Part shown: positions 2,610 to 16,379 of the stretch, one piece after another
Position numbering within the stretch: position 1 is the first letter of the stretch
Layout: each line of letters starts with the position of its first letter
DNA from: a virus
DNA length: 25,400 nt
Virus record (IMG/VR): IMGVR_UViG_3300037882_003789
Span: 1 to 25,400 of that record
Strand: one strand, 5' to 3'
Notes under the pieces: generated by a model
What the model saw: the letters and a program-made list of their open reading frames with translations, nothing else
Database searches by the model: none
What the model was told of the DNA's origin: nothing
Program-made: the position numbers and the translations under genes

Positions 2610-3476
2610 TTAATATCTCCCAAAAATCTTTATGTTATAGAAAATGACTGGCCCGGTGCCGACGGAAACCGTCAAGAAAAATTGGATAGGAAGATCGGTT
2701 ACAACTGCCGGAGTATATTTGATGATCTGGTTTTCATCAAATAGAGGCTCGGATACAGCGTCGGTGAATATCGTTGCATCGCTACCGTAGTTATTCTCAA
2801 AAATCTGAAACTTGGTAATATCGGAATCACCATCTCCCAGAATGTAAAAATATACACTATCAATCTTGAAAGTGTCGGCACTGGCAGTATAGGGAATGTT
2901 AAAATATAGGGTATCGGCAGCAGCGGCATCCACAACGACGCCGTTACGGGTAACTTCCCTATTCCAAACGTGCGCTGATGCCAGTAAATTTATAACCCGC
3001 CGCCTGCCCATATTGCTCATTTCGGTCATGGTTAACGATCCGTTGAGAATATCGTGAGCCGTTATACTTTCATCTTTGACTGCCCCACCGGAACCCCCTT
3101 GTACAGCCTGGTAGGCCAGGTGCAGATTAGTAACTTCGGCATTTCCAATACTGATTATTGCCGTTGGGCCGGTTCCATCATCAACATCTATTCCACTTCC
3201 GGGAAGGATTTCATTAACACCGGCAACTCCGAATTCGTAAACGTCACCGTCTTTCCAAAATAATAGAACATCTCCGGCAGCCCTGATAGAGTCTACATAT
3301 TGCTCCATATCAATCAGAAGACTTGTAGGGTTTACAAAGCTGCCACCGCTTTGAATTTTCAGAGCTTTGCGGGCTTTTAAGGTATCAGTTTCTACCTCTT
3401 TATTTTGCCCTTGCACTTCCGGTGGGTTGGTGCAGTTTAGCAGAATGATTAATGACAGAAATATGATTCTATTCAT
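2610..3476 (-). CDS. Lipoprotein-signal protein with fibre-like body
   Basis: The product has 288 residues. I chose the ATG at 3476 because it begins directly with a lipoprotein signal (MNRIIFLSLIILLNC) whose Cys follows an LLN lipobox-like stretch. A TTG 14 codons upstream would bury that signal. The start overlaps the previous gene by 8 bp and the ribosome binding site is weak. The middle has a SGIDVDDGTG-like stretch and a VKDESITAHDILNGSLT stretch, both typical of phage tail-fibre stalks, and the C-terminal half is beta-rich. A fibre-like body behind a lipoprotein signal is odd: it could be a surface-exposed lipoprotein of the lysogen, or a fibre gene that has acquired a signal. Function is unknown. 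Confidence 0.7.
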   Translation of the reverse strand: MNRIIFLSLIILLNCTNPPEVQGQNKEVETDTLKARKALKIQSGGSFVNPTSLLIDMEQYVDSIRAAGDVLLFWKDGDVYEFGVAGVNEILPGSGIDVDDGTGPTAIISIGNAEVTNLHLAYQAVQGGSGGAVKDESITAHDILNGSLTMTEMSNMGRRRVINLLASAHVWNREVTRNGVVVDAAAADTLYFNIPYTASADTFKIDSVYFYILGDGDSDITKFQIFENNYGSDATIFTDAVSEPLFDENQIIKYTPAVVTDLPIQFFLTVSVGTGPVIFYNIKIFGRY

Positions 3477-3822
3477 ATAAAAAGTCCGTTTTATCAGGGG
3501 AGACCGCGCCATCGGCAATCTTAGGATTGGTTACCGCGCCGTCATCCAATTTAACAGTGGTTATTTCACCATCTAAAACCATTTCTTCACCGGGGAAAAA
3601 TTTACCTATCATGGGAGTAAATACGACACTATTTACCAGGACGGTGCCCTTGAAGCGCTCCCCGTTGTTATCGATATAATAAGTGCCGTCCCCGTTGTCG
3701 GTGAAGTCACCGATTTTGGGGCTTTGATAATGCGGGCTGCCATTCAAAAACGTCCATACCTCTATGGTCGCCCCGGGATCCGGGTTTCCATTAGCATCCA
3801 GTTTTAAAATAGTCGTTCTCAT
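3469..3822 (-). CDS. Small tail/baseplate fibre-attachment-like protein
   Basis: The protein has 117 residues. The N-terminus (ILKLDANGNPDPGATIEV) looks like a carboxypeptidase-regulatory or Ig-like beta domain, with a second FTDNGDGTYY turn. The C-terminus carries the repeat-like segment LDDGAVTNPKIADGAVSPDK, a common stalk motif of phage fibres. The start ATG shares ATGA with the stop of the gene upstream, and AGAGGAAG precedes it. Position after the distal tail genes suggests a tail-tip or fibre base component. The stalk motif ends abruptly, so the gene may be a shortened fibre. Confidence 0.7.
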   Translation of the reverse strand: MRTTILKLDANGNPDPGATIEVWTFLNGSPHYQSPKIGDFTDNGDGTYYIDNNGERFKGTVLVNSVVFTPMIGKFFPGEEMVLDGEITTVKLDDGAVTNPKIADGAVSPDKTDFLYE

Positions 3823-4229
3823 AATATTACTTCCTCTCCCATAATTACAATTTCCGGTAGCTGCACACCCAGGGCTTTTACCCGGAATCTTAAAGTGGGG
3901 TTGGTTAAAATGTTATAGCCTTTAAACAGTTCGAAGTCGATAACGCTGTCGGCGTTTACGACTTCAAAAGTAACGCCATCGATGATTAGCTTTTTATCGG
4001 TGGCCTGTAAAAAATTGGTCATAGCCAAGCCTTGAATGAGATTGAGTTGCAATTTTATCTCAATGCGCTGCCGGTGGTTTTCCTGGTAGTTCTCTACCAG
4101 TTCATAATCCAGCTTTTCCAGCACTTCGCCGACCAATTCGAGTGAGAATTTTACCCGTTCGCAGAATAGGGTAAACTGCTCAATGTTTCCATTATGAATG
4201 AAGGTAACGTTGACATCCCGGTTCAGCAT
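3819..4229 (-). CDS. Putative tail protein (136 aa)
   Basis: I do not recognise a family. The 136-residue product is acidic-to-neutral and mixed alpha/beta, with no signal or membrane segment. It begins MLNRDVNVTFIHNGNIEQF. Its ATG overlaps the stop of the 407-residue tail gene (TAATG) and its own stop overlaps the next start (ATGA), so translation of the whole tail-tip cluster is probably coupled. By position it is a distal-tail or tail-tip component acting in virion assembly. Confidence 0.65.
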   Translation of the reverse strand: MLNRDVNVTFIHNGNIEQFTLFCERVKFSLELVGEVLEKLDYELVENYQENHRQRIEIKLQLNLIQGLAMTNFLQATDKKLIIDGVTFEVVNADSVIDFELFKGYNILTNPTLRFRVKALGVQLPEIVIMGEEVIL

Positions 4230-5452
4230 TACAATACGATCCCTTCCACTTTAGCGACGCCTTCCTCGTTGATGGAAAGACGGTTTAGCTTTACCGTCTC
4301 GCTGCCGGCCAGCAGTTCGTCTAAAACTACTTCGTTATCATAAAGGATACTCCCGGTAAATCCATCGTTACTGGAGATGATGTCATCGTAAGCATCCTCA
4401 ATATCTCCGAAGGTGCTGAATGCTCTATTTCCAAAGACAATGCTGCCTATTTCCCACCCGTTAACCGGGTCATGGTCGGCCATTGTCCAATACAAAATAG
4501 ATGGATCAATAGAATCGATAAAGTCGGCAGGGTCAGAAATTTCTAGGCTTTTATCAAAAACAAATTTGCTGTTAAAATTTTCGTAAGTGAATTTGAAGTT
4601 ATCACCGTTAATCACCACACCATCGATACGATATTTATTATGGATTCGCTGGCGTTCTAACCAGGTAACATTTTTAGAATCCATCTCACTAAATTTTTTG
4701 GGAATCAGTTCAATGTCTAACCCCAGTATGCCGGATTCGATTATTGGTGTAGCCCGCAAGTAACAATTGTAGGCATAAAGAGCCATCTTAAATACATCCA
4801 TCCAGGGAATATCGTGATCACCAAAGGTAAAGTCCACCGCTGTTTCTTCGGTCTCCGATTCATCCAGTGATATGTCACGAAATAAAGCCGGTACGGTCGT
4901 TTCACCGGCGATGTATCTCAGTGGAGTTGACAGGTCGATCAATTGGTATCCCTTACCATTACTTTTACCGGCCATATTGAGAATCATATCTCCCAGGGAG
5001 AATCCCCAGACATCTTCCGCATTAATCAATGGATTGACGGTAAATATTTCTTTGATGATTATTTTGGCATTGCTCAACTCATAGCTCCAATCGGCACTAT
5101 CGGCGCTGTAAACGATGTTGGTATCCTGCAAATCATCAAAGAAAAGATTTTGAATGGCAATTAAACGATGCTTATAAAGACGGCTTTTTTCATCATAGTT
5201 TAAGTATGGCCGGTCGATGTGATAGATTCCTTGTAGACTTCCGTTCCAATAAGCCGCCAAAAAATCCCGCGCCGGGGGGTTAGAAATGGTAAACGGCTCA
5301 CGGGTGGTCAAAGTAATATCCCCGGATTTTAAAAATTGTTCGTCGCCAACGGTTACTTCGATGCTGATACTCTGCTTAATCACCTCCACCGGGATTTGTT
5401 CACTGATTAACCCATCGCTATCAGTTCCGATGTATTGAAACGTGAAACTCAT
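4229..5452 (-). CDS. Putative distal tail/tail-tip protein (407 aa)
   Basis: The gene directly follows the tape measure and starts within its stop (ATGA). The 407-residue protein is soluble with no signal. Its N-terminus (MSFTFQYIGTDSDGL) and first 100 residues look beta-rich, including a FTISNPPARDFLAAYWNG stretch, as in distal tail or tail-associated hub proteins. In siphoviruses the genes after the tape measure normally encode the distal tail protein and tail-associated lysin. No peptidase or lysozyme motif was seen here. The family assignment rests on position. Confidence 0.65.
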   Translation of the reverse strand: MSFTFQYIGTDSDGLISEQIPVEVIKQSISIEVTVGDEQFLKSGDITLTTREPFTISNPPARDFLAAYWNGSLQGIYHIDRPYLNYDEKSRLYKHRLIAIQNLFFDDLQDTNIVYSADSADWSYELSNAKIIIKEIFTVNPLINAEDVWGFSLGDMILNMAGKSNGKGYQLIDLSTPLRYIAGETTVPALFRDISLDESETEETAVDFTFGDHDIPWMDVFKMALYAYNCYLRATPIIESGILGLDIELIPKKFSEMDSKNVTWLERQRIHNKYRIDGVVINGDNFKFTYENFNSKFVFDKSLEISDPADFIDSIDPSILYWTMADHDPVNGWEIGSIVFGNRAFSTFGDIEDAYDDIISSNDGFTGSILYDNEVVLDELLAGSETVKLNRLSINEEGVAKVEGIVL

Positions 5453-8142
5453 ATCCGCCTCCGGTTCTCATTCTTCTCATATTCCGGCAGGTTATCCCGG
5501 AAAAATTTTATCGTATCTATATCGGAGAGAATATCAATTTTAATTTCACGGATTGCCCGCACAGTGTCTTGCCGAAACGAGGAAAACTCCCTTGCTAAAC
5601 CGTTATCCGGTGCAACTTGAATATTAGAAGCCGGGCGCAGAACATCACCAAACAGCCGGGAAAAATTACCGGAAACCCCGGCCCCGTAAGAGGCCGAAGC
5701 TCCGGGTTGGGAGGAAGTGCCAGCAGTGCGATTGATGGCATCCAACAACGGTAAAAACCGGGAGGTAGCCGCCCGGTTTACAACATACTCTCCATCATTT
5801 CCGGCAAACAGCCGGTTTTCCCCCAGGCCAAAACTTCCGCTGGCGACTCCATTTCCAATAAGCCCGCCCAGGTATTTCTTTTCAAAATTGACGTTTTGGA
5901 TTTTAACCACGTTAGCAAAGCCGGCAGCAATAGCCGCGGCCGCGGCCGCAGCACCCAGCGCCGGCCCCACAATTGGAATTCCGGCCAGCGCTTTATAGGC
6001 GGCCTGCGCTGCGGCGTAAGTGTTATACTGGGTCTCAGCCAGTGCCCCGGCTTTTCCGATGCCGAACATACCGGAATAGCTGACGCCGAAGGCTTTAAGA
6101 ACCGAATCCAAACCACTAACAAGGTTAGTGTTTTTATCTTCGTTTAACGATATGGATTGATCGGTAACGTCCTGCTCGTATGAAATACGTTTATCGGCCA
6201 GGGATTGCCAGATTTCGGCCTCTAAATCGGCGGCCTGGCGCGTTTGTAGAATATGTTTTTCTAACGGTAAAGAAAATTCCGAGGTTGAGGGTTGTTCCGG
6301 TTGTCCAACAGCACCGCCAGCGGTGGGCGATCCGGTTGCAGGAGTCTGGGCAATCACCTGCCGGGCGGCAATGAATTTCTCAATTTCTTCATTGAGCTTG
6401 GAGGCTTCTTGCTCCGAAAGCTTTAACTCCGCGGCAATCTGCGCAATGGCTTCGGCGCTGTTGATGTTCTCGAAGTTGGAGAGCAGCGCTAAGGTTCTGG
6501 GAAGTTCAATATTAGCTTCAGCCAGTTCCGTTCTCAATTGCTCTTGAGCAGCTGCGACGTTTTCAACACTTCTTTGATGCTGTAACCATAATTCAGGATT
6601 ACCAATGGATTCTTCCATCAACTCCTGGTGAGTCTTCTGTAAATCGGCAAGCCTTGCAAATTCCGTTGAACCATTGGCAACCGTCTCAATCAATGATTTT
6701 AACTGCTCTTTGGCCCCTTCAAAAACATCAAATTCCGTAACACGTAAAAGGCTTTGCTGCTGCTCAATCATCGCCCGGATTGCCGGAGCGTTAACGCTCA
6801 GGGCGTCTCCGTATTGATTCACCTGGTCGATTGCACCGGGAAAAGATTTTGCCAGCAGGTCGGTAACTTCCTTCAAGCGCTGTTGTTCATCGGCAGTTAA
6901 TTCGGTTTTGGATTTGAGCGTTTCATACTCGTTTAAAACCGCCGATAAATCCTCAAACTCTTGTAACTGCTGGCGGGTAGTTTCCAGGCTTTCCGCCAGG
7001 CTGTCGGTTTCACTGGTGGCGCTTAAAACCCAATCCAGTAAATCACTGCCGGCTTCCAAAACAGCGGTGATGGCCGGAACCACCTGGTCGATGAAAATAA
7101 AAGTAAGCCGATCCCACTGGTTGGAAAGCAGTTGCAGCTTGCTTGCCATCGTGTCACTCTGGATCTCGAACGCCGCATTCATCGATCCGGTGGCATTCTC
7201 CATTGCAGCAGTTTTTTCGATGAAGTCATCATACTGGCTGGTGGTAAGCGCCAGCAGCGCCGTGACTGATTCCACGCTGCTAAACAGGGTAGTCATTTTG
7301 GCAGCGCTGCCCTGGGTGGCCTTTGCCACAATTTCCAGCACCCCCGCCAAACCTTTTTGCGCAACGGCTGCTTCCACGCTGGCAAAACCCTGGGAGGTAA
7401 TCAATTCGGTAAGTTCATCGGTGGGATCGGCAAGGCCGGTGGCAATTGCTTTTAACTGGGTGGCAACTTCACTGGTATTTCCGGTAACGCCGGTAAGGGT
7501 GGCAAACGCTCCAAAAAGCTCATTGGTGGATATTTGCAAGGCGGAGAAAATCGGAATAACCTGACCGGCGCTGGCGGATAATTCTGAAAAGGTAGTCTGC
7601 CCCAGGTTGACGGTAGTAAAAGCCTGATCCATCACCGCCTCGAAATCCGACCATTCCTTGCTGTAACCTTTGATAACCGCGGAGCCGATTTGTAAGGCTT
7701 CCGTAGTCTGGGCAAGGCCGGCTTTTGCGGCTTTGGCGGAGGCTTCCAAAACGCTGATTTGATTGTTAGCATCCACCCCGGCGCTAACGACCTCGTAAAG
7801 GCCGCCGCTTAAATTTTCTAAGGGAACGGAAATATTACTGGATAGGTCTAAAACTGCTTCGCTAAGGGCATCAACATTTTTAACGCCCAGGCTGCCAACG
7901 TTGGCAATGGCCGTTTCAAACTCGCTGAATTTACGAATGGGAACTGCCAGGGCATTTACCACCTGGCTTATAACGTTGGTAATCTCGTTGAAGGTAAAAG
8001 AGAAAGCGGTTACTTTACCGATCATGGAATCGAAGGAAGCACTAATCTTTCCTTGAAGATTGCCTACGGCGTTGTCGATGGCGCCGGTTTCGCTTTTAAA
8101 CTGGCCACCTTCTAATGTAACCTTAACTCTTAAATCGGGCAT
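5449..8142 (-). CDS. Phage tail tape measure protein
   Basis: This is the longest gene, 897 residues, and it sets tail length. Residues of about 60-350 match the TP901-type tape measure core: a SEFETAIANVGSLG start, an ENLSGGLYEVVSAGVDANN stretch, and alternating small and hydrophobic residues. A charged coiled-coil stretch follows (about 370-440, with QQLQEFEDLSAVLNEYETLK). A very hydrophobic Ala/Gly segment lies at about 720-745, encoded partly by a GC-rich CCGCGG repeat. The C-terminus has a GGLIGNG...FAGNDGEYVVNRAAT motif often seen at tape measure ends. It lies downstream of the frameshifted chaperone pair, as in lambda-like tails. Its length suggests a tail of roughly 130 nm by the usual 1.5 angstrom per residue rule. 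Confidence 0.92.
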   Translation of the reverse strand: MPDLRVKVTLEGGQFKSETGAIDNAVGNLQGKISASFDSMIGKVTAFSFTFNEITNVISQVVNALAVPIRKFSEFETAIANVGSLGVKNVDALSEAVLDLSSNISVPLENLSGGLYEVVSAGVDANNQISVLEASAKAAKAGLAQTTEALQIGSAVIKGYSKEWSDFEAVMDQAFTTVNLGQTTFSELSASAGQVIPIFSALQISTNELFGAFATLTGVTGNTSEVATQLKAIATGLADPTDELTELITSQGFASVEAAVAQKGLAGVLEIVAKATQGSAAKMTTLFSSVESVTALLALTTSQYDDFIEKTAAMENATGSMNAAFEIQSDTMASKLQLLSNQWDRLTFIFIDQVVPAITAVLEAGSDLLDWVLSATSETDSLAESLETTRQQLQEFEDLSAVLNEYETLKSKTELTADEQQRLKEVTDLLAKSFPGAIDQVNQYGDALSVNAPAIRAMIEQQQSLLRVTEFDVFEGAKEQLKSLIETVANGSTEFARLADLQKTHQELMEESIGNPELWLQHQRSVENVAAAQEQLRTELAEANIELPRTLALLSNFENINSAEAIAQIAAELKLSEQEASKLNEEIEKFIAARQVIAQTPATGSPTAGGAVGQPEQPSTSEFSLPLEKHILQTRQAADLEAEIWQSLADKRISYEQDVTDQSISLNEDKNTNLVSGLDSVLKAFGVSYSGMFGIGKAGALAETQYNTYAAAQAAYKALAGIPIVGPALGAAAAAAAIAAGFANVVKIQNVNFEKKYLGGLIGNGVASGSFGLGENRLFAGNDGEYVVNRAATSRFLPLLDAINRTAGTSSQPGASASYGAGVSGNFSRLFGDVLRPASNIQVAPDNGLAREFSSFRQDTVRAIREIKIDILSDIDTIKFFRDNLPEYEKNENRRRI

Positions 8143-8145
8143 GTT

Positions 8146-8403
8146 CTAATTTCCCATCATGCGCCAAAAGACGGTTTCAAAATCGTTTTCCAGGAGTAGA
8201 AAAATCATTGCATCTTTTAAATCCGCCGCTGCGCATTCCTGGTAGCTACCAAAGTTTGCTTGTTTCAACCGCTTTATGAATCGATCCCAAACGAAAGGGT
8301 CATCCTGCTGATCCAGCCATCGATAATCTTCGTCGCCCGTTTTACGAACCGCCAATTGCCCACGAATAATCTCTAATTCAGCGAAGCATTGATGAACTTT
8401 TGC
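8146..8403 (-). CDS. Tail assembly chaperone, GT-type -1 frameshift extension
   Basis: This frame would be translated as the C-terminal part of a fusion made by -1 slippage from the upstream chaperone. From 8403 it reads AKVHQCFAELEIIRGQLAVR, then a KTGDEDYRWLDQQDDP segment and an alpha-helical acidic end, 85 residues in all. The open frame continues unbroken across the 92-residue-frame stop. The only internal start candidate is TTG at 8355, which lacks a ribosome binding site. The predicted fusion is 82 + 85 = 167 residues. GT-type products chaperone the tape measure and recruit the tail tube. A separate 69-residue product from TTG 8355 is the alternative. Confidence 0.7.
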   Translation of the reverse strand, partial: AKVHQCFAELEIIRGQLAVRKTGDEDYRWLDQQDDPFVWDRFIKRLKQANFGSYQECAAADLKDAMIFLLLENDFETVFWRMMGN

Positions 8404-8648
8404 AAAAAACGGGTGAGGCCCTCCGATAAAATCCGGGTATCGAATTCATCAAATTTCAATTTGCTGAAATCGTCCTGGTAGATGGTTGCCAGCACCGATT
8501 TGGTTTTTTCTTCATCGGTGCAAACTTCCAGGAGCGCCACAGCATACTGCCGGGCGTCGCTATCCAGGAGGCCGAATTGTTTTAAATTTTTAAGAGCCTG
8601 GGGGGTCACTTTGTTAAGTGTCAGTTGCTGCTTGCTGTTTTTTTCCAT
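8373..8648 (-). CDS. Tail assembly chaperone, G-type
   Basis: This 91-residue alpha-helical protein lies between the likely tail tube gene and the tape measure, the usual place of lambda gpG-like chaperones. The ATG at 8648 was chosen over GTG at 8651 because the GGGAGG site leaves 5 nt before ATG but only 2 before GTG. The sequence holds KVTPQALKNLKQFGLLDSDA and a Cys-Thr-Asp-Glu stretch, with no known enzyme motif. Residue 82 is the Leu of the slippery codon, after which normal reading gives 9 more residues. It would work in the cytoplasm with the GT fusion on the tape measure. Confidence 0.75.
   Translation of the reverse strand: MEKNSKQQLTLNKVTPQALKNLKQFGLLDSDARQYAVALLEVCTDEEKTKSVLATIYQDDFSKLKFDEFDTRILSEGLTRFLQKFINASLN
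8403..8409 (-). promoter_or_regulatory. -1 ribosomal frameshift heptamer TTTTTTG
   Basis: On the minus strand the zero frame reads CGT TTT TTG, so the heptamer T TTT TTG has the X XXY YYZ form. Slipping back one base puts the ribosome exactly in the frame of the downstream extension, which is open from there to 8146. The zero-frame stop TAG comes 9 codons later. I did not find a convincing downstream stem-loop by eye. Confidence 0.7.
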
Positions 8649-8677
8649 CACTTCCTCCCTAAGAAAGTTTAGGTTAA

Positions 8678-9148
8678 TTAATCGTTATCCCACACCAATT
8701 CACTGGTGTCGGTTCCTTTCGCCTTCAGTTTTAAATACGTCCACTGGCCATGCTCAAAGGGCAATTCCACCGGGTCAACAAATTGAATGTCGGTAATGTC
8801 AAGGGTCTGGATTAAACCGTCGCTGGCACGAACTACCCCAAAACGAATGTCGTATTTGGGCAGCGTGCGGAAACCCTGGGTTTTGGTGAAAACGCTGGAA
8901 CTGTGAGTGCCGCCCAATGCCAATACCAGGTGGTCGAGGGTGGCGGCCATCATTACAAAATCGGATTCAAACAGGGTACCAACCTCAGCGCGGGTATTGG
9001 GGGCCGGGCTGTTGGAACTCATACGCTCCACAATCGCCGGGGCAATGTTTATGCGGGCTACTTCTTTGGCCAGTTTATTTTCGGAAGCGGCATCCAGGTC
9101 TCCACCTGCTGCCACAATCTTCACATAAGTTGCGTGTAAAAAATCCAT
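8678..9148 (-). CDS. Probable major tail (tube) protein
   Basis: The 156-residue soluble protein is rich in beta-type segments after an N-terminal helix: NTRAEVGTLFESDFVMM, then FTKTQGFRTLPKYDIRFGVV, then FVDPVELPFEHGQWTYLKLK. It lies immediately before the chaperone pair and tape measure, where siphoviruses place the tail tube gene. Its ATG overlaps the stop of the small membrane protein gene upstream (TAATG). No family signature was certain, so the tube assignment is from position and general make-up. A head-tail joining protein is the alternative. Confidence 0.6.
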   Translation of the reverse strand: MDFLHATYVKIVAAGGDLDAASENKLAKEVARINIAPAIVERMSSNSPAPNTRAEVGTLFESDFVMMAATLDHLVLALGGTHSSSVFTKTQGFRTLPKYDIRFGVVRASDGLIQTLDITDIQFVDPVELPFEHGQWTYLKLKAKGTDTSELVWDND

Positions 9149-9387
9149 TATCGCCTCGATCTTTTATTTTCTAACGTCTCTACTTTATCCCACAGTCGCC
9201 CAAGTTTTTCCTCGGTCTCCGGTCGCGGGATGTAATCTTCGAATCTCTGCTCTATCTTAATTAGCAAATTGTTGATGTTGTGAATATCGGTTTTCACGGA
9301 GCTTAAGAACCAGATTAAAACCCCGGCATGTCCCAGGATAAATAATACTACCCCGACTAAAATTTCTACATTGATGGTCATGGTCAT
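9148..9387 (-). CDS. Small membrane protein with coiled coil (XhlA/spanin-like shape)
   Basis: The 79-residue product has one N-terminal membrane helix (VEILVGVVLFILGHAGVLIW), then a heptad-rich stretch (VKTDIHNINNLLIKIEQRF) and a charged tail. This shape is shared by XhlA-type proteins and by some inner-membrane spanins. It overlaps the gene before it (ATGA) and the gene after it. Location inside the head-tail cluster is unusual for a lysis gene, so a role in lysis is a guess from topology only. Confidence 0.6.
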   Translation of the reverse strand: MTMTINVEILVGVVLFILGHAGVLIWFLSSVKTDIHNINNLLIKIEQRFEDYIPRPETEEKLGRLWDKVETLENKRSRR

Positions 9388-9575
9388 TTAACATCCCGTT
9401 GGCCTTTTCCATTTGCATAACGATGCTCAAAAATATTAGCCATTGCGGTCGGCGTTAACAGCGAACCGATTCCCAGGCCAAGATTAAAGGCGTCGATGTG
9501 GGGATTCTGAACCATCAAAATGCCGTAAATGACCAGCCCCAAAATGGTTTGCCAAAATTTTCTACTTCCCACCAT
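9384..9575 (-). CDS. Small membrane protein, holin-like size
   Basis: The 63-residue protein has two hydrophobic stretches (FWQTILGLVIYGILMV and FNLGLGIGSLLTPTAMANIF) and a charged C-terminus ending GQRDVK. It overlaps its upstream neighbour by 14 bp and its downstream neighbour by 4 bp. Size and topology fit a class II holin, and it is paired with the coiled-coil membrane protein. No endolysin gene is nearby, so the function remains open. Confidence 0.6.
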   Translation of the reverse strand: MVGSRKFWQTILGLVIYGILMVQNPHIDAFNLGLGIGSLLTPTAMANIFEHRYANGKGQRDVK

Positions 9576-9846
9576 CTTGCTGCTCCAGTTCCGGGCATTT
9601 AAAACCCCAGTTTTTTACTAATACCAGTGCTTTTTTAGGAGTAGTCCAGGCCAGGCCATCTTCAAACTTGACACCAAAAACCCGTTTGTTTTCATGAACG
9701 GCGTCGCTGTAAACCATCACGGTTTTTTTTGCCGGTTTTTCCACTTCCTCCAATATTGCAGGAGTATCAACAGGCGTTTCTTCCACGTCGGATATTGAAC
9801 CGTCAATCTCAAAACCTTCGGCAATTTGTGATTTTCTCTTGCCCAT
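9562..9846 (-). CDS. Hypothetical phage protein (94 aa)
   Basis: I do not recognise this protein. It is small, soluble and charged, with an acidic first half (DGSISDVEETPVDTPAILEE) and a basic, hydrophobic second half (ENKRVFGVKFEDGLAWTT). The start overlaps the stop of the preceding gene (TAATG), so it is part of the coupled structural cluster. A minor head or head-tail joining role is possible by position only. Confidence 0.6.
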   Translation of the reverse strand: MGKRKSQIAEGFEIDGSISDVEETPVDTPAILEEVEKPAKKTVMVYSDAVHENKRVFGVKFEDGLAWTTPKKALVLVKNWGFKCPELEQQDGGK

Positions 9847-10184
9847 TATGCCGACATCCTTATTGCCGCCACCGTTACCGAAGTGACACCGGAGTAAGTT
9901 ACCTGAACATTACCATCTCCATCATTGAACCCCACTTGGTTGATGGGGCCAATCATCCGTTCCTCTCCATTGGTAACCGCTACAACTACGTCTTCCTGGG
10001 CGGTTCCTGCCGGGGGATTGGGATGCTGCGAGGCAATGGTTACATTGATGGGAGAGCCGCCGCCGTTTTTAACGTGCAGAAAGGTTTTGCCGTCGTTAGG
10101 GAATTCATCCCCGCCACCGGCTGCCGCTGCGTAGGTAGCTTCCAGGCCGGTAATCGCCATTTCTTGAATTGCCAGAGTCGCCAT
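9846..10184 (-). CDS. Putative capsid decoration/structural protein (112 aa)
   Basis: The product is a small beta-rich protein: an N-terminal MATLAIQEMAITGLEATYAA, an FPNDGKTFLHVKNGGG motif, then VTIASQHPNPP and a C-terminal VQVTYSGVTSVTVAAIRM. The NDGxTFLHVKNG stretch resembles small head-decoration-type proteins seen next to capsid genes in many phages. It lies three genes after the capsid, in the same coupled cluster. The decoration role is inferred from this resemblance and position. Confidence 0.65.
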   Translation of the reverse strand: MATLAIQEMAITGLEATYAAAAGGGDEFPNDGKTFLHVKNGGGSPINVTIASQHPNPPAGTAQEDVVVAVTNGEERMIGPINQVGFNDGDGNVQVTYSGVTSVTVAAIRMSA

Positions 10185-10471
10185 TACTTTTTACCCTTCC
10201 TTTTATTATCAAAACCGCCGCCCGCTAATTTCATATTGGCTTCCGGCTTTCCGGTGATATTGGTGTCAGAGAGATTCTCATCCCCAGGATTTTCATCCGC
10301 TAAATTTCCATCCAGGCCGGAGTTTTTGAGATGATAGCGGTAAGGCCCTTTCGGATCGGTTAATTTTATCGCAAGGAATTCATCTTCGGTTACCCCGATT
10401 CCATCGATGAAGGTAAGACCTTCACGCACGCCTCGGAAATTCCGGTTGGGAGTTGCAATAATAAAACGCAT
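10184..10471 (-). CDS. Hypothetical structural-cluster protein (95 aa)
   Basis: The 95-residue protein has a folded-looking N-terminus (MRFIIATPNRNFRGVREGL, then a short acidic stretch). The C-terminal half is polar, likely disordered, with Asn/Asp-rich segments and a very basic KRKGKK end. No family was recognised. It overlaps the exported-protein gene upstream and the decoration-like gene downstream by one base each. A role in head completion is only positional. Confidence 0.6.
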   Translation of the reverse strand: MRFIIATPNRNFRGVREGLTFIDGIGVTEDEFLAIKLTDPKGPYRYHLKNSGLDGNLADENPGDENLSDTNITGKPEANMKLAGGGFDNKRKGKK

Positions 10472-11031
10472 TAGTATTCCTCCTGATAAGCATACAGGTA
10501 AGCGTTGAATACCGTATCGGATCGGTTTAAAGCCACTCCGAAAATCTTCATACGGTATTGGGGATACTTCTTATTATTGAAATTCAACTGGGCGACCGTG
10601 CGGGTTTCCGAGGTCAAATCGGTAAATAAAGTATCGACCGGATCCCAGTTACTGCCGTCAAAACTTCCCTCGATATAACCGGTAATTTTGGGAGAGCCGG
10701 CTGCCGAGGTTGCCTGGTATTGAATCCAGAACGGTCGTCCAACATGCCCACCCTTATCCGCAATAGTTAAAAAAGCGCCGCTGGCCAGGGTATCCATCGT
10801 GCTTACCGTGTCACGATTGCTGCCCCAGTAAACGTTATCATATTTGCCCAGTTTAAAAGTCGCGCTGGTCAGGGTGTCGATGCTATCCACCGTGCAGGTA
10901 AACCGGAAAATTTCTCCGTAGGGCTGTGAATCCTTACGGGCGTTATTGCTCCATTCGCCATCCCCCGCCCAGGCGGTAAAGGCCAGTAGAATAAAAAACA
11001 GGATAAACGAAAAATTAAATTTGAATTTCAT
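10471..11031 (-). CDS. Exported protein with signal peptide next to capsid gene (186 aa)
   Basis: The N-terminus is a clear Sec signal (MKFKFNFSFILFFILLAF, then a TAWA|GD cleavage-like site). The mature part is beta-rich with regular Asp/Thr/Ser repeats (VDSIDTL, STMDTLASGAF, PVDTLFTDL), followed by FNNKKYPQYRMKIFG, which recalls F5/8-type or immunoglobulin-like folds. GAGGTAGCT precedes the ATG. It sits between the capsid gene and the decoration-like gene, where a virion protein would be expected, so the export signal is odd. The function is unknown. A periplasmic or surface protein of the lysogen is one option. Confidence 0.7.
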   Translation of the reverse strand: MKFKFNFSFILFFILLAFTAWAGDGEWSNNARKDSQPYGEIFRFTCTVDSIDTLTSATFKLGKYDNVYWGSNRDTVSTMDTLASGAFLTIADKGGHVGRPFWIQYQATSAAGSPKITGYIEGSFDGSNWDPVDTLFTDLTSETRTVAQLNFNNKKYPQYRMKIFGVALNRSDTVFNAYLYAYQEEY

Positions 11032-11051
11032 AGCTACCTCGTTTTAAGCAC

Positions 11052-11100
11052 AGCCAGGGTTGTTAATCCTAAGCGTTTCCGCCGACAGGCAACCCTGGCT
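11052..11100. terminator. 11-bp inverted repeat after the capsid gene
   Basis: AGCCAGGGTTG (11052-11062) is exactly complementary to CAACCCTGGCT (11090-11100), with a 27-nt loop. It lies in the 151-nt gap between the capsid stop and the next start. On the minus strand (direction of transcription) no T-run follows directly, so attenuation or mRNA stabilisation is as likely as termination. Confidence 0.45.
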
Positions 11101-11127
11101 TTTCAGGGTTGGTTTACAATTTTAAAG

Positions 11128-11167
11128 ACGGGCCTGCGTGCCAGGTTGTCCGGCCCAGCAAGCCCGT
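11128..11167 (-). terminator. Hairpin with T/A tail just past capsid stop
   Basis: On the minus strand ACGGGC (11167-11162) pairs with GCCCGT (11133-11128). The internal GGGCC and GGCCC segments offer an alternative stem. CTTTAAAATT follows. Read-through past this point would lower expression of the downstream tail genes relative to capsid, as is usual in phage late operons. Confidence 0.45.
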
Positions 11168-11182
11168 TCGCCTTATCTAGGC

Positions 11183-12109
11183 TTAATTCAGTTTCCATCC
11201 TTGCGACAACACCAGCGCCCAGGGTTTCTGCAAACCTAAAACCATATCCAGGTTGATATTGGTCAACAGGTAATTTCCGCTTTGGCCGGCGTCGCGGGCA
11301 ATTAAACCCACCGAGGTTAATGCCGAAACATTATCCGCCTCGCCCCATTGCGTAAAGAATACGCTGGAGGAATTACCACCGTTGACCGCTTCCGTGAACG
11401 GTAGCAGCGGAACGCCATCGGCGTCATAACCGGCGCCCTTTAAAATCACGTTGCGAATTTGCGGGATCGGCACTCCAAATTCGTCGATGGTTTCCCGGTA
11501 GTAACCCAGACTTTTACCCACCGTTACCCAGCGGGTCAAAAGGTCTTCGTTCATGTAGGCAATCGGGTTGACTGCCCGAAGCTTCTGGGCTTCTTTCAGA
11601 AAGGCTTCCACTGCCAATTGTTGCGCTTCTATTACGCCGTCACTGTTACCAGCCGGAACTAAAACGCCGTTTTCGTTGGTGTAGCTGCCACTGGCAATTT
11701 TCCGTAAGCCGTTAAAATCTTCTGCATCCGCCGCGGCGTCGCCCTCAAAAATAAGATACTGCAAACGGAAACCGGCTTGCCGGGCTTCCCGCTGGATTTG
11801 CCGGATCATCGCGGTCGGTAAATCATATCCCCGATCCGCATAAACCACGTCGACCTTTGCATCAAACGATACAATCTTTTTAGTCAAGGTTGCCGGAACC
11901 GGGGTGGGCGGGGTGGCGCTGTTATCCTCGTTTAAGGAACGGGTAATTTTAGCTTTCGCCGCCGCGTCAAAATCCTGGTAGATAGTATCGCTGGAACCGG
12001 GTTGCGCGTAAAACTCAATATCCTCCAGCGCCGGAGCGACTTCGGCCAGGGCGTCAATCGCCGTATTGGTGAGATTATCACTGGCGGAAATTTCTCTAAT
12101 TCGTGCCAT
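11183..12109 (-). CDS. Major capsid protein
   Basis: The product has 308 residues, the typical size for Mu gpT/HK97-fold capsid proteins. The N-terminus (MARIREISASDNLTNTAIDA) is followed by a VYADRGYDLPTAMIRQIQRE spine-helix-like stretch. A middle domain has AYMNEDLLTRWVTVGKSLGY and the C-terminus has KPWALVLSQGWKLN. It comes directly after the protease/scaffold gene and before small structural genes, the standard order. AGGAAAAG precedes the ATG. It would form the icosahedral shell after scaffold removal. The assignment rests on length, position and general sequence character. Confidence 0.85.
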   Translation of the reverse strand: MARIREISASDNLTNTAIDALAEVAPALEDIEFYAQPGSSDTIYQDFDAAAKAKITRSLNEDNSATPPTPVPATLTKKIVSFDAKVDVVYADRGYDLPTAMIRQIQREARQAGFRLQYLIFEGDAAADAEDFNGLRKIASGSYTNENGVLVPAGNSDGVIEAQQLAVEAFLKEAQKLRAVNPIAYMNEDLLTRWVTVGKSLGYYRETIDEFGVPIPQIRNVILKGAGYDADGVPLLPFTEAVNGGNSSSVFFTQWGEADNVSALTSVGLIARDAGQSGNYLLTNINLDMVLGLQKPWALVLSQGWKLN

Positions 12110-12129
12110 GTTCTTTTCCTTTTAAATGA

Positions 12130-12627
12130 TTAATTACGGTTTTCGTAGTATTTGGCATCCAGGCCGCGTTGCTGCCATTTCAAACGCAATTCCTCCGCAG
12201 CGTCTTTCGCGTGGTTTTTCTTTACCGGTTTTTCCTGGGCTTGCGGAGTTTCCAGGCTGCCCGGTTTGGCGGCATTGGCTTTGATGTTATCCAACACTTC
12301 TTTGGTTTTGGCAAAATTCTGTTTGGCGGAGTTAATATAAATCTCTTTTTGCGCCGGGGTAATTTTACCGGCGTTGATGGCGCTGTTTACCAGTGCTTCC
12401 ACCGCTTCATTCACACGGGATTCCTCCCGTTCTTTTTCCCGATTTTCAATCGCTTCCAGGCGCACTTCCCATTCTTCTTTTTTCTTTTCGCCTTCCGGAT
12501 GCGGTTTATCTTCCGGTTTTTCGGGATCGGGTGCAGCATTCAATTTTTCTACTGCTGCCTCCACTTGCTCCGGGGTGGCGTCTTCCGGCAACCCCAGTTT
12601 CTTTAAAAATTCTGCGGAAAATTTCAT
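12130..12627 (-). CDS. Nested scaffold protein (gpZ-like), in-frame internal start
   Basis: Met166 of the protease gene begins MKFSAEFLKKLGLPEDATPE, and a GAGGA site lies 4 nt upstream of its ATG at 12627. Translation from here would give a separate 165-residue scaffold without the protease domain. Mu genes I and Z have this nested arrangement. The charged coiled-coil composition fits a scaffold. Spacing is slightly short, so use of this start is likely but not certain. Confidence 0.5.
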   Translation of the reverse strand: MKFSAEFLKKLGLPEDATPEQVEAAVEKLNAAPDPEKPEDKPHPEGEKKKEEWEVRLEAIENREKEREESRVNEAVEALVNSAINAGKITPAQKEIYINSAKQNFAKTKEVLDNIKANAAKPGSLETPQAQEKPVKKNHAKDAAEELRLKWQQRGLDAKYYENRN

Positions 12628-13122
12628 ATCATCCTCGTGGTTTGAGTTACGAATATGGTCTATTTCGTTGTCAAGATACGGCTCATTGGTAAGCGCCACG
12701 TGCAACAATTGTGCACCGATGGGCATCCCCAACTTATTGCGACTTTCCAAAACGTAAGCCGGGGAAAGATACCGGTATTCCCGGTTCTTCACCATCTCCG
12801 TAGCGTGCGGCGTAAAGTCCGGGTATTTAACATACAACCCATCTTCCAGAACCTCCGCCGATGCACTCCATCCGGCTGCGCGGGTATCACCAAACAACGA
12901 ACGATGTTCAAAGTCAAAGAGTAAATCCTTTTTGCTGTTATTGAAATTATCCGCCATCTGTTGCAGATGGGTAGCGGTAATTTCATGTGGGCCGTCCGGA
13001 TGATTTGGGAAAACCCCAATGGGAACCACTTTAATAAAGTCGCCCTGGGCGATTTCTACCGCGTTAAAAAAACAGCCCTTTTTTCTGCTTGACTTATTTC
13101 TAAAAATTGCTAACTTAAACAC
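12130..13122 (-). CDS. Mu gpI-like prohead protease with C-terminal scaffold
   Basis: The protein has 330 residues. Residues 1-160 carry features of the phage I-like protease family: an FPNHPDGPHEI stretch, a DFEHRS motif with D70, E72 and H73, REYRYLSPAY at 114-123 and ALTNEP at 143-148. Residues 166-330 are highly charged and helical (EKKKEEWEVRLEAIENREKE), as in scaffolds. The start is GTG at 13122, with AAAGG 11 nt upstream. It directly precedes the capsid gene. The protease would mature the prohead and degrade the scaffold. The gene starts a leftward operon from the divergent region shared with the portal. Confidence 0.85.
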   Translation of the reverse strand: MFKLAIFRNKSSRKKGCFFNAVEIAQGDFIKVVPIGVFPNHPDGPHEITATHLQQMADNFNNSKKDLLFDFEHRSLFGDTRAAGWSASAEVLEDGLYVKYPDFTPHATEMVKNREYRYLSPAYVLESRNKLGMPIGAQLLHVALTNEPYLDNEIDHIRNSNHEDDMKFSAEFLKKLGLPEDATPEQVEAAVEKLNAAPDPEKPEDKPHPEGEKKKEEWEVRLEAIENREKEREESRVNEAVEALVNSAINAGKITPAQKEIYINSAKQNFAKTKEVLDNIKANAAKPGSLETPQAQEKPVKKNHAKDAAEELRLKWQQRGLDAKYYENRN

Positions 13123-13274
13123 GTTCGTTTTTGCCTTTCTTGTTCAAGACATCGTAAAAATAATTCCCCAAACCCCATTTTTAAAGAGTTCTCGCCACAA
13201 CTATACTGCCGTGCGCTAAATTTTAGTAAACGCCGTTGGCCTGTTATAAATTTCCCGCTGTCGAAAGGAATGAT
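13123..13274. promoter_or_regulatory. Divergent late promoter region between protease and portal
   Basis: The 152-bp gap separates two diverging late operons and so should hold promoters for both. On the plus strand an extended -10 element TGTTATAAA lies at 13242-13250, with only a poor -35 (TTTAGT at 13222). This is what an activator-dependent late promoter often looks like. On the minus strand I saw no convincing -10/-35 pair. AAAGGAA at 13264-13270 is the portal ribosome binding site. Confidence 0.4.
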
Positions 13275-14393
13275 ATGCTAACGGTAAACAAAAAAATTTC
13301 TCAAGCGCGGGTGCAGTTCAACCCCGATTTTTACAAACGCGCTTATCAGCAATACAAAGATGGGGTCTTTACTGATCTGATTGCCTTGATGAAAGAATCG
13401 GCCATCGATAGCTACGTTGCCGGATGCCTCGCCAGCCGCCGTTCCGGTTTCCAGCGGGATTGGACAATCAAACCCTTTGATCCCGATAACGCCGCCGACC
13501 AGGAACGCGCCCTGTTTATCCAGAACATGTTTGAGAATATCAACTCCCGGTTGTTCTTTAAAAAAATCCATGAAGCCACCACCTACATTTATAGCGTGAT
13601 CGACTTTGAGTGGGAAGTCATTAACGGCTTACAGGTTATCACCGGGTTTAAATGGTATGATCAAAAATATTTCAAGTATGACCAGGACGGTATTTTGAAA
13701 GTCGATTGGGGAAAGAGCCTGCGCCCCATCCCGGAAACCACGTTGGTTTGCGAGAGCAAAGAAACTCCCATCATGCTGCCGGTGCTGCGCGACTTTATCT
13801 TGAAAAATTTTGGCCTGGAATCCTGGGCTTCTTTCATCGAAGCCTTCGGTGAAGGAATCCTGATTGGAAAATATCCCCCCGGCGCTACCGCCGATTTTAA
13901 ACAGGAATTGGAAGACGGCCTGGATGCCATTGCCCGCAGCAGCCGCGGCACCATGCCCCAGGGCACCGAAATCGACATCGTGGAAACCAACCGCACCACC
14001 GGCGATCATAAAGATTTTACACAAGTGTGCAACGAGGGTATTGCCATCAGCCTGCTGGGGCACGCCAACGCCGTGCAGGATAGTAGTGGAATGCGGATCG
14101 GTGAAAACCTCGCTCCCTTCAAAGTGCGGCGAGACCTGGCCCTTGATGATATGTATTTTATCGAACCTTGCATCAATAAAGCCATACATATCATCTACGA
14201 TCAAAATTATGCTGATGCCCGCTACCCGCTTTTCCGAATGGATAAAAGCGAGCCTATCAACATCACCGAGCGCCTGGATGTTTTGGATACCGCCTTCAAC
14301 CAGGGTTTGATCATCGACCCCGACGAATACCGCAAGCTCGGTTTAAAAGTTCAGGATGACCAGGAACCCTTACAAAAGGATTCCATCTTATGA
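13275..14393 (+). CDS. Phage portal protein, DUF935 (Mu gp29-like)
   Basis: This 372-residue portal forms the dodecameric DNA entry vertex. I use ATG 13275, preceded by AAAGGAA. A TTG 13 codons upstream lacks a site and overlaps the promoter. Family-like segments are ESAIDSYVAGCLASRRSGF near residue 45, DFEWEVINGLQVITGFKWYD in the middle, and WASFIEAFGEGILIGKYPPG, which corresponds to the conserved FxExyG region of gp29-like portals. The C-terminal GHANAVQDSSGMRIGENLAP is also typical. The gene overlaps the small terminase gene (ATGA). In Mu the portal follows the terminases, whereas here it precedes them. Confidence 0.9.
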   Translation: MLTVNKKISQARVQFNPDFYKRAYQQYKDGVFTDLIALMKESAIDSYVAGCLASRRSGFQRDWTIKPFDPDNAADQERALFIQNMFENINSRLFFKKIHEATTYIYSVIDFEWEVINGLQVITGFKWYDQKYFKYDQDGILKVDWGKSLRPIPETTLVCESKETPIMLPVLRDFILKNFGLESWASFIEAFGEGILIGKYPPGATADFKQELEDGLDAIARSSRGTMPQGTEIDIVETNRTTGDHKDFTQVCNEGIAISLLGHANAVQDSSGMRIGENLAPFKVRRDLALDDMYFIEPCINKAIHIIYDQNYADARYPLFRMDKSEPINITERLDVLDTAFNQGLIIDPDEYRKLGLKVQDDQEPLQKDSIL

Positions 14394-14869
14394 AATTCTC
14401 CGCCACCGTTTACAACGAAGCCAAACGCCTATTCATTGAGGAAGAATTGAGCCTGCATCAAATCTCTGCCCGTTTTAACGGCCACCCCAGCGCCCCGGCC
14501 ATTCACAAGTGGTCGAAGATTCCTGACAATGATGGAAAGACCTGGAAGGACTATAAACTTGCCTACCGTGATGAACTATACAATATGGTTTCTCCCCAGG
14601 CCATTGCCGTAAAAATTTTGGATAACATCCAGAAGCTTTTGAACAACGAGAACTTCGGCACCAAAGACGCCGACGCCCTGGCTAAACTCCAAAAGAGTAT
14701 GCAGAAAATCACCGATCCCAAATACCAGATACCGGTGATGTATTCCATGCTCACCGACCAGATGAAGTTTTTCCAGAAACATTACCCGCAGATCGTCAAC
14801 AAGGATTTGGTGGATGCTATCCGGCATTTCAAAAACGAGTTGGGAAAGAGGTTGAGCAGTGGACAGTAA
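14390..14869 (+). CDS. Terminase small subunit-like protein (Mu gp27 position)
   Basis: The product has 159 residues. The N-terminal third is a helix-turn-helix (AKRLFIEEELSLHQISARFN, followed by IHKWSK) like those of small terminases that read packaging sites. The rest is helical with a regular charged pattern (KILDNIQKLLNNENFG, ADALAKLQKSMQKI), suitable for ring formation. It overlaps the portal stop and ends inside the start of the large terminase gene. In Mu-like phages the small terminase starts packaging from the integrated end. Confidence 0.8.
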   Translation: MKFSATVYNEAKRLFIEEELSLHQISARFNGHPSAPAIHKWSKIPDNDGKTWKDYKLAYRDELYNMVSPQAIAVKILDNIQKLLNNENFGTKDADALAKLQKSMQKITDPKYQIPVMYSMLTDQMKFFQKHYPQIVNKDLVDAIRHFKNELGKRLSSGQ

Positions 14870-16379
14870 TCATCTGAAAAACATCGACGTTGGGTTTGAA
14901 CGGCTGCTGCTGGATATTCTGCACGGCGTCGATCAATTGGAATTCACCCCGGAGCGCCGTGCCTTGCGCCGCCAGGTGGTTGACGCCGATGATCTGGCCT
15001 TTTGCAAAACTTATTACCCAAAAATTTTCGACCTGGAATTTAACGCCCTGCACCGCCACATCGCCGGCCTCAAGGAAGGTAAATACACTGTGGAAGGTTT
15101 CCCGATGTCCGGCAAAACTGCCTTCACCTTCATCACCAAAATTATTAAGCCGATGCTCACCGGGGGAAATGGCCTGTTTAACGTTACCCTTCGCACCCAG
15201 GACATCGCAAAGGAACGCACCTTTCACATATTTCGTCTCATAACCTTCAACCGTTTGTTGATGTTCGATTATGAACCCAACATTCTCCAGGAGCAGAAGG
15301 GTTACTACATCATCAACAAGGCGACCCTGGTAGCTACCAGCGTCGAGACCGGCTTGCGTAATTTTGTTGACGATGATTTTAAACGCTTCAAAGTAAGCGT
15401 GGCCGATGACCTTTATAACCGTGTATCCGTGCGTTCCGAAAAGGATAACGAAAACGTCGCGGAGTTCGTTACCGGGGAGCTTTACCGGCAGATGGAACCC
15501 GATGGTTTGAGCGTCTGGCTGGGTAACGGAATTAAAGAAGATTGCCCGATTCGCCGGGTTTCTAATTTGTTTCCCGACCAAAATTTTATTTTCCCCATCG
15601 TCGATGAAAACGGCAATTCCAACTGGGAAGTAAAATACCCCACCGAGAAGCTGCCGGAACTGCAAAAGGATATTCCCTGGGATGTCTGGGAAGGCGAATG
15701 GCTCTGTAAACCGGCCATGAAAGGCGACATCTTCCAGAAGGATTGGCTACATACCATCAACATCAATCTTCTGAAGATCATCGCCAGCCTTTCCGCCTGT
15801 GATCCCTCGCACGGTAAAAGCCCGGCAGCCTGCAATAAAGGTTTAATCACCGGAGGCGTCACCAGCAAGCATGAAGTCATCGTCCAGGACATTTACCTGC
15901 GCACCGAATCCTACGAAACCATGTTCGACTACGTGGCCGCCCTGCGCCAGCGTATTTCCAACTGGAAAGTTTTGCTGTTTGAAAACGACTTCGAGCAGTG
16001 GAATTTTGCCGATGCCTATTATAAAGACTGGATGAAAACCCGCAAATCCACGCTGCCGATTATGACCTTTTACAGCAAGGATAACGCCACCGAATATCGC
16101 GGGGCCGATAAAGAAAGCCGTATCCTTAACCTGGTGCACCCACACCAGACCGGCATGATCCTTTACAGCGACCTGCTAACCGGCACTTCCGATTGGGTGA
16201 AATTCCAAAGCCAATACCTGGCCTTTGGCAAGGCAAAGGAAAAGCAAGACGGCCTGGATGCCCTGGCCACCCTTTATATTATGATTTTCCGATACATCGA
16301 AACCGGTAACTTTAAAGCCACCAAAAGCAAACGTTACCAGAAACCAGGTTGGTTTGCCAAATTCCGGGAGGGCCGCTGA
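14859..16379 (+). CDS. Terminase large subunit (Mu gp28-like)
   Basis: This is a 506-residue packaging motor with ATPase and nuclease parts. Walker A is G80-FPMS-GKT87, an exact GxxxxGKT. Walker B is probably VSVAD183D184. The nuclease residues are likely D315 (in ACDPSHGKS), E375 or D377 (LLFENDFEQ) and D464 or D467 (KQDGLDALA), the RNase H-like triad of terminases. Translation starts at GTG 14859, with AAGAGG 8 nt upstream and an 11-bp overlap with the small subunit gene. The stop shares TGATG with the next gene. It would cut prophage DNA and pump it through the portal. Confidence 0.92.
   Translation: MDSNHLKNIDVGFERLLLDILHGVDQLEFTPERRALRRQVVDADDLAFCKTYYPKIFDLEFNALHRHIAGLKEGKYTVEGFPMSGKTAFTFITKIIKPMLTGGNGLFNVTLRTQDIAKERTFHIFRLITFNRLLMFDYEPNILQEQKGYYIINKATLVATSVETGLRNFVDDDFKRFKVSVADDLYNRVSVRSEKDNENVAEFVTGELYRQMEPDGLSVWLGNGIKEDCPIRRVSNLFPDQNFIFPIVDENGNSNWEVKYPTEKLPELQKDIPWDVWEGEWLCKPAMKGDIFQKDWLHTININLLKIIASLSACDPSHGKSPAACNKGLITGGVTSKHEVIVQDIYLRTESYETMFDYVAALRQRISNWKVLLFENDFEQWNFADAYYKDWMKTRKSTLPIMTFYSKDNATEYRGADKESRILNLVHPHQTGMILYSDLLTGTSDWVKFQSQYLAFGKAKEKQDGLDALATLYIMIFRYIETGNFKATKSKRYQKPGWFAKFREGR

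Follow-up and report, generated by a model that had tools for sequence, protein, structure and literature searches.

A predicted −1 ribosomal frameshift of the lambda G/GT type at a conserved slippery site before the tape measure gene of Mu-like phages

Two short reading frames, here called G and T, lie just before the tape measure gene of the IMG/VR virus record IMGVR_UViG_3300037882_003789, and they raise the question of how the second frame is translated. PMC5009743 describes the G/GT frameshift, which joins two such frames, as widespread among phages with long tails and as occurring in −1, −2 and +1 versions. The stretch analysed, called the window below, spans 25,400 bases and is in itself a complete viral contig record. 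It codes for a Mu-type portal (PF06074, E 1e-46), a Mu-type I protease (PF10123, E 1.6e-37) and a GemA-like protein (E 9.9e-15), and by these matches the phage is Mu-like, with Mu-type head genes. The late genes at 3469-16379 are divergent. The portal, a small ORF and the terminase lie on the plus strand, and the minus strand carries the protease together with the genes for head and tail, with a start near 13.1-13.2 kb. Mu late genes are all found on one strand.

The tape measure gene (5449..8142, minus strand) encodes an 897 aa protein that matches PF10145 (E 3.8e-24) and phrog_991 (E 4.8e-38), and its ATG is separated from the T stop by 3 nt. Upstream of G lies a 156 aa gene (8678..9148, minus strand), homologues of which precede G in four related contigs (L005, L008, L010 and L011). 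This gene gave no family match in Pfam, PHROGs and further searches, tail tube families included, and it is a plausible tail tube gene judged on its position. The earlier note had placed the pair between the likely tail tube and the tape measure; the tape measure side of this claim is borne out by family matches, while the tail tube side is positional.

G and T are very probably a single gene expressed by programmed −1 ribosomal frameshifting of the lambda G/GT type. G (8373..8648, minus strand) is a predicted zero-frame tail assembly chaperone of 91 aa that runs from the ATG at 8648 to the TAG at 8375-8373. It is preceded by the ribosome binding site TAGGGAGGA (8653..8661, minus strand), which forms an anti-SD duplex of −11.6 kcal/mol. 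Read in the zero frame, the slip site on the minus strand is ...CTC ACC CGT TTT TTG CAA..., where CGT TTT TTG are codons 80-82 of G and T TTT TTG is the slippery heptamer (8403..8409, minus strand). A slip of one base brings GCA at 8403 into place as the next codon. From there the −1 frame of the T region (8146..8403, minus strand), which would be read by shifted ribosomes only, has 85 open codons and ends with the TAG at 8148-8146. Upstream, this frame is closed 36 nt before the heptamer. Joining G and T by the −1 shift gives a 167-residue GT fusion with the predicted junction ...TRFLAKVHQ... and the expected Glu-C junction peptide GLTRFLAKVHQCFAE. The codons at the heptamer, the 85-codon second frame and the product lengths of 91 and 167 residues had all been given in the earlier note, and they were confirmed to the base, coordinates and frames included.

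In the proposed mechanism, most ribosomes would end at the G stop and release the 91 aa protein, and a minority would slip one base back on T TTT TTG, where tRNA-Phe reads TTT and tRNA-Leu reads TTG, and carry on through T to make GT. By analogy with lambda (PMC5009743), G would coat the tape measure protein and the T part of GT would recruit tail tube subunits, so that the G:GT ratio set by the heptamer would matter for tail assembly, and neither protein would be present in the finished virion. The window taken alone is suggestive of this mechanism but is not proof of it, since in-frame heptamers are common. Among window ORFs no shorter than 70 aa, a scan for the X XXY YYZ pattern counted 100 heptamers in frame, and for 6 of the 100 the −1 frame extends at least 50 codons past the stop, which makes the heptamer and its frames only moderately unusual. 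One further site of this kind is the in-frame TTTAAAC at 10531 (minus strand) in the ORF at 10471-11031, where the −1 frame is open for 95 codons beyond the stop. That frame is the next gene, which has its own ATG and SD, and the TTTAAAC was taken as chance.

Viral contigs searched directly with G, T and the tube gene yielded no relatives, searches of annotated phages with G or T gave no match, and the window portal protein used as the sole query was equally unsuccessful. Relatives were reached via the terminase, portal alignments and the tape measure, which together gave nine distinct related contigs. Five of these carry homologous G and T: L002 (= L004 = L007 = L013), L005 (= L009), L008 (= L012), L010 and L011. 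These five and the window make up the six loci counted below. G homologues were found by tblastn in L011 (3.2e-15), L010 (5.0e-7) and L002 (5.8e-7), and those of L005 and L008 were not found in this way. T homologues were found by tblastn in the −1 frame in L008 (9.6e-11), L011 (3.8e-10), L010 (2.7e-9) and L005 (9e-7). The T of L002, at 11% identity and with no tblastn match, is not recognisable by sequence and is assigned by position and openness only. Every one of the five loci has at least one supported part, because tblastn found G or T in each. Identity to the window protein is 24-41% for G and 11-38% for T. Two further matches were taken as chance, namely a tblastn match of G antisense to the L012 terminase (E 0.001) and a match of the L002 G inside the L010 tape measure (E 0.008). 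L002 (IMGVR_UViG_3300028030_000035, 38,406 bases) has the most divergent G and T. JALVAK010000022.1, which gave the same match as L002, is binned as a Nautiliaceae MAG, a binning that may or may not point to the host.

The remaining four contigs (L003, L006, L014 and L015) were left out of the counts. They share head genes with the window and gave no convincing G or T match by tblastn, apart from which L003 gave a weak match to the tube gene (E 0.049). Window-like head and terminase genes are thus combined with other tail modules in these contigs, which is head/tail mosaicism. Candidate −1 sites in small ORFs were seen in three of them, T TTT TTA at 772 in L003, A AAA AAG at 2690 in L006 and TTTTTTT at 1980 in L014, and the ORFs with the L003 and L006 sites gave no chaperone family match. 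A region of L003 (3385-6111, minus strand) looks like a diversity-generating retroelement, as recognised by eye. Its apparent parts are a YMDD-containing reverse transcriptase (3385-4407), an Avd-like small ORF (4696-5034) and an ORF (5059-6111) whose C-terminal RGG...IGFRPA stretch recurs as an N-rich copy within 4316-4702.

Comparison of the six loci provides the strongest evidence for the frameshift. An in-frame T TTT TTG or T TTT TTC occurs at the same aligned place in 6/6 loci, and the run is exactly six T in each of them. The site reads CGT TTT TTG in the window and L005, AGT TTT TTG in L011, AAT TTT TTG in L008, TCT TTT TTC in L002 and GAT TTT TTC in L010. The residue before it varies (R in the window and L005, S in L002 and L011, D in L010 and N in L008), and the codon for this residue always ends in T (6/6 loci). 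Counted from the start of the second heptamer base, it is 24-57 nt to the G stop, the −1 frame is open for 82-92 codons from the heptamer, including in all five relatives, and the fusion is 160-177 aa long across the six loci. The chance that codon choice gives T TTT TTN, conditioned on the residues encoded there and on how the long ORFs of each locus use codons, is 0.052 in the window, 0.024 in L005, 0.40 in L002, 0.047 in L011, 0.42 in L010 and 0.037 in L008. The joint synonymous-codon chance for the six sites is about 10^-6.4, a value that presumes nearly independent loci, which their divergence makes reasonable. What exceeds chance is the conservation of the site and not the heptamer itself. 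The alignment of homologous loci had been proposed in the earlier note as a check, and the heptamer and both frames are kept in all five loci with the gene pair. The outcome that the note considered contrary to a frameshift, a T gene that has a start of its own and lacks a slippery site, is found in none of the five. The heptamer is also a better marker of the G/T gene than the protein sequence, because the site was kept while the proteins diverged to 11-41% identity.

Start codons in T were examined in the same loci, and they bear on the possibility that T is a separate gene, translated without any frameshift by re-initiation just past the G stop. The sole ATG, GTG or TTG within the first 46 T codons of the window is the isolated TTG at 8353..8355 (minus strand), which lies in the T frame, 54 nt from the heptamer and shortly past the G stop, where re-initiation could use it. 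The region upstream of this TTG pairs with the anti-SD at −2.9 kcal/mol, compared with −11.6 for the G start, which is no useful SD and agrees with the observation in the earlier note that T has a lone TTG and no ribosome binding site of its own. The TTG is not kept in the relatives. Their first ATG, GTG or TTG lies 114 nt (L005), 198 nt (L002), 138 nt (L011), 126 nt (L010) and 138 nt (L008) from the heptamer, so T has no start codon for about 38 codons or more in 5/5 relatives, and a start at these places would remove much of T. The T homology in L008, L005 and L011 begins directly at the heptamer, which counts against re-initiation further downstream, and re-initiation would leave the kept heptamer unexplained. 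Independent initiation of T is unlikely because of the late starts in the relatives and the TTG without a useful SD in the window, and we give very little credence to T as a separate gene. An automatic annotation would report G and would miss or truncate T.

The exact length of the T run in all six loci would also fit slippage of RNA polymerase, since homopolymer runs can slip, and in this case the fusion would be made from the edited part of a mixed mRNA. The account in PMC4066793 gives AAAAAAA and UUUUUUU as under-represented in all frames of E. coli genes, which was counted in favour of polymerase slippage. The zero-frame register T TTT TTN, however, is kept in the loci, and the register matters only for tRNA re-pairing. 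Six T are short for transcriptional slippage. In addition, frameshifting in the lambda version of this gene pair is ribosomal according to PMC5009743, and slippage of the polymerase is a very improbable source of the fusion. An indel of assembly or sequencing, or decay, could also split one ordinary gene into two frames, and a one-base indel in a homopolymer is a common error. The same split, in the same register, is present in six distinct contigs at 11-41% protein identity, and an error would not arise repeatedly at the same aligned codon, which refutes this reading and makes a split ordinary gene extremely unlikely. Ribosomal −1 frameshifting at the heptamer is the explanation that we prefer.

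The frameshift may be assisted by an upstream element. An SD-like stretch that fits the SD criterion of PMC4066793 lies 9-10 bases upstream of the heptamer in 6/6 loci. Four loci have GAGG, at a distance of 11 counted from the second base, and two have GGCGG or GGTGG at 10. In the window this candidate stimulator is GGAGG (8420..8424, minus strand), 10 nt before the heptamer. Such motifs occur at 9-20% of codon positions per locus, and the product of these frequencies is 4e-6. The amino acids encoded at the stretch are E-G, E-A or G-G. Under synonymous resampling the product of chances for the motif is 0.044. With the same kind of control, the pairing energy gives a Fisher p of 0.036, or 0.060 over a wider stretch, and the best single locus is the window (p 0.024). 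A role of the SD-like stretch as a shift stimulator is no more than plausible; the synonymous control is weak, and constraint on the amino acids may explain the motif. A conserved downstream structure was rejected as a stimulator. In the 50 nt after the site, the MFE z is near zero in 5/6 loci (−0.6 to +1.0), and a strong hairpin is found only in L010 (z about −2.4).

A comparison with E. coli bears on the expected yield of the shift. Homogeneous UUY codons shift better than UUR in E. coli, and the 18 efficient and under-represented heptamers given in PMC4066793 include U_UU.U_UU.C and do not include U_UU.U_UU.G. The word "canonical", which the earlier note had used for the heptamer, is correct for the X XXY YYZ pattern and does not extend to membership of this efficient group. 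A low GT yield is expected because T TTT TTG falls outside the 18 heptamers, in a ranking that is that of E. coli and may not be that of the host. A low yield would suit the need for much G and little GT, as in lambda, for which PMC5009743 gives a G : GT ratio of 30:1. Two tail chaperone frameshift genes assayed in PMC3711429 shifted at 6% and 7%.

The proteins are not recognised by existing libraries. G and T of the window gave no Pfam match above the cut-off and no PHROGs match. Members from the six loci gave no convincing match in Pfam or PHROGs either, the best chaperone hit being Phage_TAC_7 (E 0.15) in one of six members. Searches with G and T against PDB sequences and hhalign comparisons with the lambda or D3112 counterparts also gave no match. 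The protein family is thus unrecognised in Pfam, PHROGs and PDB searches, while the frameshift mechanism itself is known. An AlphaFold2 model of G built on the six-sequence alignment shows four helices with good confidence (pLDDT 87.6, pTM 0.77), and its fold search gave at best a Foldseek E of 1.8 in the PDB, a VIA-align Z of 2.6 and an E of 0.42 in BFVD. Three entries named "tail assembly chaperone" were among the matches (E 3.0, 4.7 and 5.6, TM-score 0.30-0.31) and are too weak to use. The missing fold match of the G model does not show a new fold. The T model is mostly helical and of low confidence (pLDDT 66, pTM 0.41), too weak for a fold search. The last predicted helix of G (residues 71-90) contains the shift site, and T in its weak model starts with a helix (residues 2-24). 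Because of these two helices, GT may carry a single helix over the junction.

Lambda G/GT uses a different heptamer, GGGAAAG, which was located in the lambda sequence. Under the criterion applied here no SD-like motif accompanies it, whereas 6/6 loci here have one. Lambda G is 140 aa long, compared with products of 91 and 167 aa here, and there is no detectable sequence similarity. The arrangement of the window, with its putative tail tube gene, resembles that of lambda (NC_001416), where G, T and H overlap, the two frames lie between the major tail protein and the tape measure, and the −1 shift takes place near the end of the first gene. The phages PaMx73 (core ORFs 35/36) and D3112 (orf42) are alike in having Mu-like head genes with a different tail. 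For the Mu-like siphophage PaMx73, a −1 site T TTT TTC was predicted in putative tail assembly genes (PMC4378225), and a T TTT TTC heptamer is in frame in D3112. The D3112 chaperone has 161 aa and shows no detectable similarity. The gp41 region of Mu also has a frameshifted chaperone before the tape measure, and the window shares the Mu-type portal and I protease. Mu, however, is reported to use a −2 shift (PMC5009743, PMC2628397), whereas in all six loci here the open second frame is the one that a −1 shift at a −1-type heptamer would reach. A Mu-type −2 shift in the window was rejected, as it leads to the remaining frame, which has stops.

Two further systems show partial likeness. Bacillus phage vB_BhaS-171 has a tape measure that is 36.5% identical over 37%, preceded by two small ORFs in which T TTT TTA is in frame and the −1 frame is open (L016:4194-4807). 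Its G is not alignable, the criterion applied here reveals no SD-like motif, and the two ORFs are annotated as hypothetical proteins; the region at 4194-4807 is probably an unannotated G/GT frameshift. In the −1 shift of E. coli dnaX, a homopolymer-type heptamer is preceded by an SD-like stretch (PMC3711429). It differs in that dnaX is an unrelated gene and also has a downstream hairpin, of which none is conserved here. The pair in the window is very probably a further case of the known G/GT frameshift and is not new in kind, because the lambda and Mu versions were already described and the PaMx73 site was already predicted.

The position of the tape measure gene permits a more speculative proposal. 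The tape measure may be made mainly by shifted ribosomes, with SD-like tuning of G:GT, so that GT and the tape measure would be produced in step. If ribosomes leaving T read the tape measure, the shift would also set its output. The tape measure start pairs poorly with the anti-SD in 6/6 loci (−4.2 to +1.5 kcal/mol), compared with −7.2 to −11.6 kcal/mol for the G start in five of the six and −2.8 in L010. The T stop overlaps the tape measure start or lies within 3 nt of it in four of the six loci (window, L005, L010 and L011). This layout is broken by a long gap in L002 and by an inserted ORF between T and the tape measure in L008. The strong SD of the lambda tape measure start (−10.3) and the presence of other window starts that are also weak against the anti-SD count against coupling, and we consider it an unlikely possibility. 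The inserted L008 ORF (5517-6011, plus strand) is a moron-like ASCH-domain gene (PF04266, E 2.4e-5), and in HK97 a moron (gp15) is likewise annotated ahead of the tape measure.

If the coupling is true, one frameshift would set two ratios, and the tail parts would be made in proportion. For the gene pair itself, the finding extends the G/GT frameshift, as predicted from its conserved site, to a library-unrecognised protein family in uncultured Mu-like phages.
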